The notes below the pieces were generated by a model that had not been told where the DNA came from, made no database searches, and worked only from the letters and a program-made list of their open reading frames with translations. From positions 868,001 to 932,000 of the forward strand of contig NZ_CP069161.1 in assembly GCF_018802605.1 (NCBI RefSeq): a DNA stretch of 64,000 bases, in the 5' to 3' direction. Below, in pieces: positions 4,614 to 40,731 of this stretch (its first letter is position 1; every line of letters starts with the position of its first letter). Source of the DNA: Paludibacterium paludis. GTDB taxonomy: Bacteria > Pseudomonadota > Gammaproteobacteria > Burkholderiales > Chromobacteriaceae. The position numbers and the translations under genes are program-made.

Positions 4614-6371
4614 ATGCAGATACCCGAATACTACAATCCGGTGGCCAGGGATATCGCCCTGGCGCTGATCGGCGGTTTCGACAAGCACTACCGGCTGTTT
4701 CGCGAGTGCAACCGCCAGGCCAAACGGATGTTCGAGGAGGGAAACTGGCAAGGGGTGCAGCAGGCGATCCGGGACCGCATCCAGTTCTACGACAATCGCG
4801 TGGCGGAGACGGTGGCCCGCCTGCACGAGGAATTTCACGCCGAATTGCTCGACGATGAAATCTGGCAGCAGGCCAAGCTGTACTATATCGGCCTGCTGAC
4901 CAACCACAAGCAGCCGGAGCTTGCCGAAACCTTCTTCAATTCGGTCTTCACCCGCATTCTGCATCGCGACTATTTCAACAACGACTTCATCTTTTTGCGA
5001 CCGGCGATTTCCACAGATTACATCGAGTCATCGCCGCCTTCCTACCAGAGTTATTATCCGGCCTCCCAGGGTGTCCGGCATGTGATGCGGCAGATCATCG
5101 CCCAGTTCGGCTGGCGTCGTCCTTTTACCCGCCTGTCCCGGGATCTGGGAATGGTGCTGCGCATGATCGGCGAGCATCTGGGGGGGAACTGGCCGAAACC
5201 CGAAGCCAATTTCCAGATCCAGGTGCTCTCCTCGGCGTTCTACCGCAACAAAACCGCCTATATCCTCGGCAAGATCATCAACGGGCACGCCATCTATCCG
5301 TTCGCCGTGCCGGTGCTGCACGACGAATCGGGGGGATTGTTTCTGGACACCATACTGCTCGAGCCCTGGCGTATCGGTGTATTGTTCTCATTCAGCCGGG
5401 CTTATTTTCTGGTGGACATGGAAGTGCCGTCAGGTTACGTGCAGTTTCTGCGCTCGATGCTGCCGACCAAGAGCAAGGCCGAACTCTATACCATGCTCGG
5501 GTTGCAAAAGCAGGGCAAGAACATCTTTTACCGGGATTTCATCCATCACCTGCAGCATTCCAACGACCAGTTCATCGTCGCGCCGGGTATCCGCGGCCTG
5601 GTGATGCTGGTGTTCACGCTGCCGTCGTACCCTTATGTCTTCAAGCTGATCAAGGACGTGTTCGGCGGGCCCAAGGAAATCGACCGCGCTACGGTCAAGA
5701 AAAAATACCTGCTGGTAAAACGTCATGACCGGGTCGGCCGGATGGCCGATACGCTGGAATATTCCAATGTGGCTTTCCCGGTCGACCGCTTTACGCCGGA
5801 ACTGCTGGAGGAGCTGCGCCGGGAGGTGCCGTCCTCGCTGGAAGAGGATGGAGACAGGATCATCTTGCGCCATCTTTATATCGAACGGCGCATGAAACCG
5901 CTCAATCTTTATCTGCAGACCGCCAGTCCCGCCGAAAAAGAGGCCGCCGTGCTGGACTACGGTCTGGCGATCAAGGAGTTGGCCTGTGCGAATATTTTCC
6001 CGGGGGACATGCTTTTCAAGAATTTCGGGGTAACGAGATACGGTAGAGTTATCTTTTACGACTACGATGAGATCGAGTATATGACGGATTGCCATTTCCG
6101 GCGGATTCCAGAGGCGCCGAATCCGGAAATGGAGATGTCAGGGGAAGTGTGGTATCCGATCGCGCGCAATGACGTCTTCCCCGAAGAGTTCGGCGCGTTT
6201 TTGCTGGGCGACCCCGATGTTCGCCGGGTTTTTCTCGAGCATCACCGGGACTTGCTCGATGTGCCGTTCTGGCAGGCGCGCCAGGAACGCATCCGGGATG
6301 GGGTCATCGAGGATTTCTATCCTTATCCGGAGCCGTTGCGTTTCGTCAACCGCTATCCGGAGCGGTATTGA
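4614..6371 (+). CDS. aceK: Isocitrate dehydrogenase kinase/phosphatase
   Basis: A 585-aa bifunctional enzyme that phosphorylates Icd to divert isocitrate into the glyoxylate shunt and reverses this. The ATP-binding segment [20 protein letters not shown] lies near residue 325, and the kinase catalytic region [20 protein letters not shown] (about 465-485) has the Asp residues that bind metal. Length matches the family (about 575-600). ATG at 4614 with a GAGGCGAGG ribosome-binding site. No aceA or aceB is adjacent, unlike enteric aceBAK, so its partner genes must lie elsewhere. Confidence 0.96.
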
Positions 6372-39484: not shown

Positions 39485-40507
39485 TCAGAAATAGTTGAGA
39501 CCCATCGCCGATTTGACGTCGGACAGCGTCGCGGCGGCCGCTTCGCGCGCCTTCGCCGTGCCCTTTTTCAGCATGTCCATCACCGCGCCGGGATCTTTGG
39601 CGTAGGTTTCGCGGCGCGCGCGGATCGGCGCGAGCAGTTCCTGAAGGATCTCTTCCAGATGTTTTTTGATAACGGTGTCGCCAAGCCCGCCGCGCTGGTA
39701 ATGCGCCTTGAATTCGGCGACACGGTCGACATCGGTATCGAATACATCAAGGTAGGTGAAGACCACGTTGCCTTCCACCTGACCCGGATCGCTGACGCGC
39801 AGATGGTTGGGATCCGTGTACATCATGCGCACCGCCTGGCGGATGTCGTCGGGGCTGGATGACAGGGGAAGGGCATTGCCCAGCGACTTGGACATTTTGG
39901 CCTTGCCGTCGATGCCCGGCAAACGGCCACCCTGTTCGGGCACCACGGCGCGGGCTTCGACCAGGATCTCGCGCGAGACGCTGGCGTTGAAGCGGCGGAC
40001 GATTTCGTTGGTCTGCTCGATCATCGGGATCTGATCGGCGCCCACCGGCACGACCGTGGCCTTGAAGGCGGTGATGTCGGCGGCCTGCGCGGCCGGATAG
40101 GTCAGGAAACCCGCCGGAATATCGCGCTCGAATCCGCGCAGTTTGATTTCATCCTTGATGGTCGGATTTCGCTCAAGCCGGGCGACGGTGACAAGGTTCA
40201 GATAGTAAGAAGCCAGCTCGGCCAGTTCCGGAACCAGACTCTGGATGAAAATGACGCTTTTGTCCGGATCGATGCCGGCCGCGAGGTAGTCCAGGGCAAC
40301 CTGCAGCACATTGTCGCGCACCTTCACGTAATTGCCCATATTGTCGGTCAGCGCCTGGGCGTCGGCGAGCAGCAGGTACTGGCGGCAGACATGCTGCAGC
40401 TGCACGCGCTGCCTGAGCGAGCCGACGTAATGGCCAAGGTGCAGCTGACCGGTGGTACGGTCTCCGGTCAGAATGATGTCGCGGTCGGTGATAGCGGGTT
40501 GGGTCAT
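39485..40507 (-). CDS. trpS: Tryptophanyl-tRNA synthetase
   Basis: A 340-aa class I synthetase that charges tRNA-Trp. HIGH-type motif [10 protein letters not shown] near residue 20 and KMSKS near 202 are intact; [12 protein letters not shown] and [15 protein letters not shown] are typical TrpS. It belongs to the shorter TrpS branch in which the adenylation loop is TG-Q. ATG at 40507 with AGGAACG upstream. The 174 bases before it contain a Trp-Trp leader peptide and alternative RNA helices. Confidence 0.96.
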
Positions 40508-40621
40508 GATCGTTCCTGTCGTTAGCGAGAGTCTTTGAATGCCGACAGGGAGGAGGGGATATGCCGTGGCCGCCTTGTCGGCAGCCATCCGGGTTTTGTC
40601 TGAACAGGGCCCGGCGCCGCC
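40508..40621 (-). promoter_or_regulatory. Candidate translational attenuator in the trpS leader
   Basis: Downstream of the leader peptide the RNA can fold in exclusive ways. CCTGTC (minus 40549-40544) pairs with GACAGG (40520-40515), which is part of the trpS Shine-Dalgarno. Alternatively TGTCGGC (40547-40541), which shares bases with CCTGTC, pairs with GCCGACA (40582-40576), freeing the ribosome-binding site. Earlier hairpins are CCGGG/CCCGG (40614-40610/40593-40589) and GGCGCC/GGCGCC around the leader stop. No T run follows any hairpin, so control would be at translation, not termination. Confidence 0.5.
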
Positions 40622-40672
40622 TCAGTCGAGGCGCCACCAGAAAAAGGAAAGGGGCGTGTTCAGGGAGTTCAT
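40622..40672 (-). CDS. trpS leader peptide with tandem Trp codons
   Basis: A 16-codon ORF, MNSLNTPLSFFWWRLD, stop TGA. An in-frame ATG three codons earlier (40681) gives a 19-residue version. Trp is codon 12 and 13 of 16. Two adjacent Trp codons near the end of a tiny ORF just before a Trp-tRNA synthetase gene match the design of amino-acid attenuation leaders such as E. coli trpL. The ribosome-binding site is weak. No family match is claimed. Confidence 0.65.
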   Translation of the reverse strand: MNSLNTPLSFFWWRLD

Positions 40673-40679
40673 GCGTTTC

Positions 40680-40708
40680 ATCTAACCATGCCGGCCGGGT
40701 TGCCGTCA
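40680..40708 (-). promoter_or_regulatory. Possible trpS promoter
   Basis: On the minus strand, TTGACG, 18 bases, TTAGAT (40685-40680). Initiation would fall at about 40673, almost on the leader ATG at 40672, which would make the leader mRNA leaderless or nearly so. An 18-bp palindrome (40709-40726) lies directly upstream and may end ppsR transcription. Confidence 0.35.
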
Positions 40709-40731
40709 AGCGCCCGGCCGGGCGCTGCGCC

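Follow-up and report, generated by a model that had tools for sequence, protein, structure and literature searches.

In the stretch of Paludibacterium paludis DNA analyzed here (64,000 nucleotides, hereafter the window), trpS is preceded by ppsR (PpsR family), and a short leader ORF lies between the two; trpS and all features of the leader described below lie on the minus strand. The trpS gene (40507..39485 with stop) encodes a tryptophanyl-tRNA synthetase (TrpRS) of 340 aa that matches TIGR00233 at 234.8 bits, with its ATG at 40507 and its Shine-Dalgarno (SD) region, CGACAGG, at 40521..40515 (GACAGG core, 40520-40515). The nearest solved structures are 1yi8 (E 6e-118) and 2a4m (E 2e-117), with the next at 2e-65; 2a4m is named Tryptophanyl-tRNA synthetase II, and we take both to be from Deinococcus. 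The leader ORF, MNSLNTPLSFFWWRLD followed by a stop, is read directly from the sequence as 16 codons at 40672..40622, running from ATG 40672 to TGA 40624-40622, and its codons 12 and 13 are TGG TGG (40639..40634), the presumed sensing codons. A second in-frame ATG at 40681 sits inside the predicted -10 hexamer, and 40672 is for this reason the likelier start. When the 250 nt ahead of trpS were dinucleotide-shuffled 2000 times, an ATG ORF of 8-30 aa with two adjacent Trp codons (WW) arose in 2 cases.

Upstream of the leader, a predicted -35 hexamer TTGACG (40709..40704) and a predicted -10 hexamer TTAGAT (40685..40680), which ends 7 nt ahead of the leader ATG, form the best promoter-like pair of the window leader, with a spacer of 18 and a layout like that of relatives. 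When gaps of 4-9 nt were allowed, 139 of the 143 leaders had their best sigma-70-like pair end 6-7 nt ahead of the ATG, a scan in which 33 leaders offered several possible ATGs and the promoter score picked among them; when leaders with a single ATG were scanned freely over gaps of 0-45, the predicted promoter fell at 6-7 nt in 106 of 110. Random positions reached the median promoter score in 0.6% of trials. With so short a gap between the predicted promoter and the leader ORF, transcription probably starts at or next to the ATG, which would make the leader mRNA leaderless. A first-pass annotation of this DNA had held that a transcript start downstream of 40622 would speak against a leader peptide; the predicted promoter, at 40709-40680, instead precedes the leader, and the span marked by that annotation (40508-40681) omits it. 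A stricter scan (A at position 2 of the -10, at least 9 of 12 matches) reported no promoter in the window, where the hexamers are weak.

Several helices compete for the RNA that links the leader ORF to trpS. In the MFE structure, region 1 (GGUGGCGCCUC, 40638..40628) pairs with region 2 (GAGGCGGCGCC, 40623..40613), which begins within the stop codon and is also, as aligned in A1 (see below), the alternative partner of region 3. Region 3 (CCCGGAUGGCUGCC, 40593..40580), assigned from alignment A1, may pair either with region 2, as an antiterminator, or with region 4. The 3:4 hairpin, GGCUGCC-GACAA-GGCGGCC (40586..40568), is found in the MFE structure and by comparison with relatives, and the tail that follows it, ACGGCATATCCCC, has no T-run. 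Closer to trpS, the fold and the swap tests described below identify an anti-SD, CCUGUCG (40549..40543; CCTGTC core, 40549-40544), as the partner of the SD region, and in the sequence itself GCCGACA (40582..40576) is the complement of TGTCGGC (40547..40541). These two pairings exclude each other because both use UGUC (40547-40544). The window leader folds at -67.6 kcal/mol (z = -3.39), a stability equaled by none of 200 shuffles, and the SD is paired with CCUGUC in the MFE structure, that is, sequestered in the default fold. What the first-pass annotation had read from the letters is therefore present: the 16-codon ORF with Trp at positions 12 and 13, the complementarity of CCTGTC to the GACAGG of the SD, which the fold pairs, and the exclusive alternative that shares UGUC with it. 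The Trp-Trp leader and the competing helices before trpS are real and far beyond chance.

An Rfam scan of the window returned nothing at gathering score for the leader and no T-box match. A gyrA RNA candidate (RF01740) at 40582-40649 of the plus strand, opposite to trpS and the leader, was rejected as sub-threshold (22.4 bits against a cut-off of 45) and is likely a coincidence around CCACCAGAAAAAGGAA, 16 identical bases whose reverse complement encodes the ...SFFWW of the leader. At 20 leader loci, no leader or T-box match was found at gathering score either; the sole Rfam match there, at 47.5 bits, was to the fluoride riboswitch RF01734, at the distal end (4765-4848) of a Janthinobacterium locus, L069.

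The leader is widely conserved. Relatives of the window TrpRS, its own genome counted each time, occur in 58 of 61 family genomes (E <= 1e-100); samples from the order (399 genomes, E <= 1e-80) and from the class (274 genomes, E <= 1e-100) contain 57 and 2 genomes with such relatives. The first-pass annotation had pointed to the Trp codons of relatives as a decisive check, and these are kept: 57 of the 58 family genomes with the gene have a Trp-Trp leader (WWW in 37, WW in 20), and one has a single W. At 47 further loci from the order, two of them fetched twice, WW before Arg was found in 24, a single W in 1 and none in 22; by the same strict rule, the best 80 listed named genome contigs gave at least two W in 53 cases, one in 11 and none in 16. 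When one upstream region was taken per trpS start, a WW mini-ORF was present in 134 of 173 distinct regions, compared with 0 of 865 shuffles. The 143 distinct leaders comprise 94 with WW, 37 with WWW and 12 with a single W, and those of relatives share the same position and the WW(W)R ending; adjacent cognate codons are thus found near the end of a short conserved ORF upstream of the putatively regulated gene. Hosts include Chromobacterium, Aquitalea, Vogesella, Paludibacterium, Burkholderia, Paraburkholderia, Cupriavidus, Herbaspirillum and Massilia, and no leader was found at the loci examined from Methylobacillus, Methylophilus, Undibacterium and Collimonas, among others. Two loci (L106, L143) were left out as false leaders, L152 was left out of the duplex tests (terminator mis-called) and L080 after them (trpS start mis-called), and L090, which has a very long spacer, was left out of the co-transcriptional simulation.

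The relatives also clarify what the 3:4 hairpin of the window may once have been. Their terminator-like 3:4 hairpins keep CCCGG...CCGGG with a T-tract; typical Chromobacterium-like rows have CCCGGAGGCUGCCGACAAGGCGCACCGGG followed by UUUGUUUUU, and elsewhere the form is GCCGCC...GGCGGC with a U-rich tail. The ten bases after the hairpin hold at least 6 T in 104 of 141 leaders and at most 3 in 13, the window among these 13. Since the terminator picker favors T's, shuffles served as its control: a hairpin of -11 kcal/mol or below with at least 6 T in the next 10 nt was found in 42 of 58 representatives versus 4 of 290 shuffles. Within Paludibacterium, L005, L007 and L019 keep the T-tract and their congener L004 has a T-rich tail, ATTTTCGTTT; the window and L022 have lost it. 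In the window the hairpin is present with the tail CATATCCCCT, which lacks the T-tract of an intrinsic terminator, and comparison suggests that this hairpin is an apparent remnant of the terminator of relatives. The lack of a T-run that the first-pass annotation had noted is confirmed for the window; its relatives mostly have terminator-like hairpins with T-tracts.

Helices were compared in three alignments, A1 to A3, which comprise 76 leaders (31, 20 and 25) of the 105 below 93% similarity; the other 29, mostly divergent, were omitted by eye. The 2:3 and 3:4 helices are predicted to be mutually exclusive, and each pairs in >90% of A1 cells (2:3 in 91.7%, and in 93.6% of A2 cells). Because covariation of 2:3 does not exceed that of shuffles in A1 or A2, this helix is proposed from complementarity; for 3:4 in A1, two pairs are changed on both sides, a count reached by 12 of 500 shuffles. 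Judged by these sequences, most relatives look like classical attenuators in which an antiterminator, 2:3, competes with a terminator, 3:4, followed by a T-tract.

These leaders have a further element. Element M (UGUCGGCA, 40547..40540), which lies just ahead of the trpS SD and overlaps the anti-SD, complements the 5' arm and loop of the terminator (element T, UGCCGACA, 40583..40576), and its anti-SD part complements the SD region (R); both elements were followed in duplex and covariation tests. In a set of 59 representatives less than 82% similar, the mean T:M energy is -20.68 kcal/mol versus -14.65 with species-swapped M and -13.40 with shuffled M (Wilcoxon against swaps, 5e-10), and M:R averages -12.85 kcal/mol versus -10.03 swapped and -10.19 shuffled (Wilcoxon against swaps, 5e-8). 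Ungapped helices agree with these swap tests (p 4e-9 for T:M, 9e-6 for M:R); for single leaders the swap tests are weak, with p < 0.05 in 31% (T:M) and 19% (M:R) of representatives. In 42 of 58 representatives, the best T:M helix and the best M:R helix draw on some of the same M nucleotides. At nine trpS loci without a leader, which are not all independent and three of which have a spacer of only 11-13 nt, the means are -9.9 (T:M) and -5.7 kcal/mol (M:R), with exceptions at L141 (-21.4 kcal/mol) and at L052 (-18.7 kcal/mol), where the leader has apparently decayed.

Covariation points the same way for T:M. With the three groups aligned apart, and bearing in mind that kinship inflates such counts, T:M cells changed on both sides number 11 in A1 versus 4.4 in shuffles (reached by 0 of 500), 6 in A2 versus 2.6 (9 of 500) and 10 in A3 versus 4.1 (0 of 500). 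Further pair types (A1, A2) and pairs changed on both sides (A2, A3) were not above shuffles, and T:M slid by 3 columns in A3 still gave 8 both-side cells, yet only 33% of its cells pair. Covariation in relatives, which the first-pass annotation had named as a mark of its two alternative helices, was accordingly found for one of the two, T:M, in the three aligned groups. In the window itself, M:R is 7 bp (p 0.04 ungapped and 0.09 by energy, against swaps) and T:M is 8 bp, unremarkable against swaps (p 0.11 ungapped, 0.45 by energy). Several T-poor lineages (the window, L022, L006, L069 and L167) retain T:M at -18 to -26 kcal/mol; T-poor L175 has a weak T:M of -10.1 kcal/mol, and no correlation between the loss of the T-tract and the strength of T:M was found (Spearman p 0.39). 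Sequence and comparison together support the complementarity of both T:M and M:R.

Two observations concern loci without a leader. Upstream of trpS in Massilia horti (L052) there is a terminator-like hairpin and a T:M-like complement, and no Trp leader ORF was found there, which looks like a recent decay of the sensor. At L079, L084 and L141, which come from two Collimonas contigs and one genome of the order, trpS has no leader and is preceded by a strong terminator-like hairpin, probably the terminator of the upstream gene.

Would a stalled ribosome switch this RNA? In equilibrium folds, ribosome masks hardly changed SD exposure, and the states were not separated: the median was 0.29 with a mask at the Trp codons, 0.32 with one at the stop codon and 0.30 with none, and the unpaired fraction of the window SD was 0.26 with the stall mask versus 0.27 without. 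In a co-transcriptional simulation, simplified to a few states, with barriers from Vienna findpath, steps of 5 nt and pseudoknots excluded, a stall shifted the 57 representatives toward the antiterminator (0.36 versus 0.09 unstalled, p 2.5e-6), away from the terminator (0.48 versus 0.62, p 0.006) and toward M:3 (0.088 versus 0.006, p 0.002; 10 leaders up, 1 down). SD opening in the same 57 leaders did not rise on average (0.41 versus 0.39, p 0.81; 19 up, 19 down, the rest within 0.05). On stalling, the SD opens in L006 (0.47 versus 0.14), L014 (0.55 versus 0.35) and L135 (0.37 versus 0.14), as a model with both layers predicts, and closes in L022 (0.32 versus 0.62) and L048 (0.50 versus 0.82), against that model. 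For the window, this simulation gives an open SD of 0.29 stalled versus 0.34 not stalled, with M:3 at 0 in both. The claim of the first-pass annotation that a stall exposes the trpS start is thus not borne out by either folding model of the window (0.26 versus 0.27; 0.29 versus 0.34). A translational step in which a stall would open the SD is plausible, and its parts are conserved; neither folding model reproduces it, for the window or on average.

The genomic setting of the synthetase varies. A second trpS, encoding 403 aa and scoring above the cut-off of NF008922, is present in the window genome, with no Trp leader upstream; a long open frame ends 14 nt before its ATG, and one out-of-frame WW there has no ATG ahead of it in that frame. 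An NF008922-type trpS is above cut-off in 55 of 61 family genomes. Four of the six Paludibacterium genomes (G001-G004, each 99% complete and one a single contig) have only the leader-controlled trpS by TIGR00233 and no NF008922-type gene, and the window genome and G005 carry both types; the term 'auxiliary' TrpRS therefore fits most genomes, not all. In one 80% complete genome (G014:C3:739823-741017, minus strand), an NF008922-type trpS is in two pieces, one with an internal TAG, beside a leader-controlled trpS without stops, and this may be a pseudogene or an assembly error. Within the 400 nt upstream of trpE in the window genome, four starts on two stops were found, none with WW.

Taken together, these results make it likely that a ribosome-sensed tryptophan attenuator controls trpS, with an added layer of SD sequestration. 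Transcription would begin at the leader ATG. With charged tRNA-Trp in short supply, a ribosome would stall on TGG TGG and cover region 1, region 2 would then pair with region 3, and formation of the 3:4 hairpin would be prevented. With an ample supply, the ribosome would reach the stop codon, 1:2 and 3:4 would form, and in most relatives 3:4 would presumably act as an intrinsic terminator. M carries the anti-SD, and M:SD pairing would turn trpS off; pairing of M instead with the 5' arm and loop of the terminator would leave the SD free, provided that 3:4 is unformed, and M:T may thus be the 'on' state. Because the T-tract is gone in the window, the output there would most likely be left at the SD. 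We tentatively extend this proposal to a widespread two-layer switch, which we regard as possible: region 3 would have three rival partners (2, 4 and M), escape from termination when Trp is short would latch the SD open via 3:M, unstalled read-through would keep the SD shut, and several lineages, including that of the window, would have shed the terminator and kept the translational layer alone, on a leaderless leader mRNA. Because related leaders mostly carry terminator-like hairpins with T-tracts, the 'translational version' envisaged by the first-pass annotation would apply at best to the window and to a few lineages whose T-tract is gone; in most relatives its place would be taken by transcription attenuation with an added SD layer.

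Other readings deserve consideration. Attenuation in the window could be purely translational, a stall opening the SD with no transcription layer. The missing T-run, the SD paired in the MFE structure and the exclusive helices all fit such a design, but the simulated stall fails to open the window SD and close relatives have terminator-like leaders (L004, L005, L007 and L019), so we consider it somewhat unlikely. The terminator-like leaders themselves invite the opposite view, pure transcription attenuation, in which the M pairings are by-products and weak termination or Rho acts in the window. A hairpin with at least 6 T in 104 of 141 leaders, and in 42 of 58 representatives versus 4 of 290 shuffles, is what this view predicts, as is a simulation that yields a terminator/antiterminator switch and not SD opening. 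It is nonetheless unlikely, as T:M and M:R beat swapped and shuffled controls, T:M covaries, both pairings are weaker on average at loci without a leader, and the T-run is absent in the window.

Control might instead have decayed in the window lineage, the leader persisting beside a dead switch and the second TrpRS gene serving as a backup. We find this unlikely: the Trp codons, the promoter layout, the 7-bp anti-SD:SD helix and T:M are all present, even though the T-tract is lost, the 403-aa second trpS has no Trp leader and the T:M of the window is ordinary against swaps. That a chance short ORF lies beside chance complementarity is hardly credible; short two-copy complements are common in GC-rich DNA, but the WW ORF arose in 2 of 2000 shuffles, leaders are found in 57 of 58 family genomes and in 134 of 173 regions versus 0 of 865 shuffles, and the swap tests favor the native pairings. 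The attenuator with an added SD layer remains our preferred reading.

This proposed design shares parts with several known systems. The trpL leaders of E. coli and relatives use 1:2, 2:3 and 3:4 logic with adjacent Trp codons. The trpS leader shares both features with the trp operon leaders and differs in preceding a synthetase gene and not biosynthesis genes, in having no predicted 5' UTR before the leader, and in its putative SD-sequestering layer. In the erm and cat translational attenuators, a drug-stalled ribosome in the leader ORF frees a sequestered SD; the logic of a stall that frees the SD would be common to both, but the erm/cat stall comes from a drug and not from uncharged tRNA. 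T-boxes bind tRNA directly and, unlike the trpS leader, have no leader peptide. SD sequestration is predicted to control a synthetase gene through translational ileS T-boxes of Actinobacteria (PMC1262725), which resembles the control proposed here for another synthetase gene. Translation of the leader ORF in Salmonella orf34-speF acts at several levels, including sequestration of the ribosome-binding site, with Arg-Arg as sensing codons (PMC6386406); the sequestered downstream ribosome-binding site and the two consecutive sensing codons recall the trpS leader, whereas Rho-dependent termination, RNase G, an arginine signal and a requirement of orf34 for expression are particular to orf34-speF.

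There is precedent for a Trp leader before trpS. A Trp leader attenuator is predicted for S. avermitilis trpS2 (PMC1262725), RNA-seq of S. lividans trpL2-trpS indicates a leaderless leader with no U-rich stretch after trpL2 (PMC8079986), and attenuation of an auxiliary TrpRS gene is credited to Vecchione and Sello 2010 (cited in PMC4787780). The Streptomyces trpS leaders likewise have a short Trp-codon leader peptide upstream of trpS, in S. lividans also leaderless. The leaders described here differ in belonging to Betaproteobacteria, in usually having WW or WWW near the leader end, in the terminator-like hairpins with a T-tract of most relatives, and in the additional M, complementary to the terminator arm and the SD, an element that the consulted passages on Streptomyces do not mention. 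Among the titles and abstracts of the matches listed in our literature search, no betaproteobacterial trpS leader was found, and Lopatovskaya et al. 2010 and Vitreschak et al. 2004 could contain one; PMC2965389 and PMC4833913 do not mention 'trpS' in their main text. Streptomyces thus provides earlier cases of Trp leaders before trpS, and what is new, as far as the literature search shows, is the family in Betaproteobacteria, together with its leaderless layout and element M.

The leaders form a natural series of one attenuator design with and without a terminator, and existing sequences and simple reporters could serve to test how a transcriptional switch becomes a translational one. If our reading is true, Trp-leader control of TrpRS, known from Streptomyces, would also operate across much of the Betaproteobacteria, and in four of the six Paludibacterium genomes examined the leader would control the sole TrpRS found.
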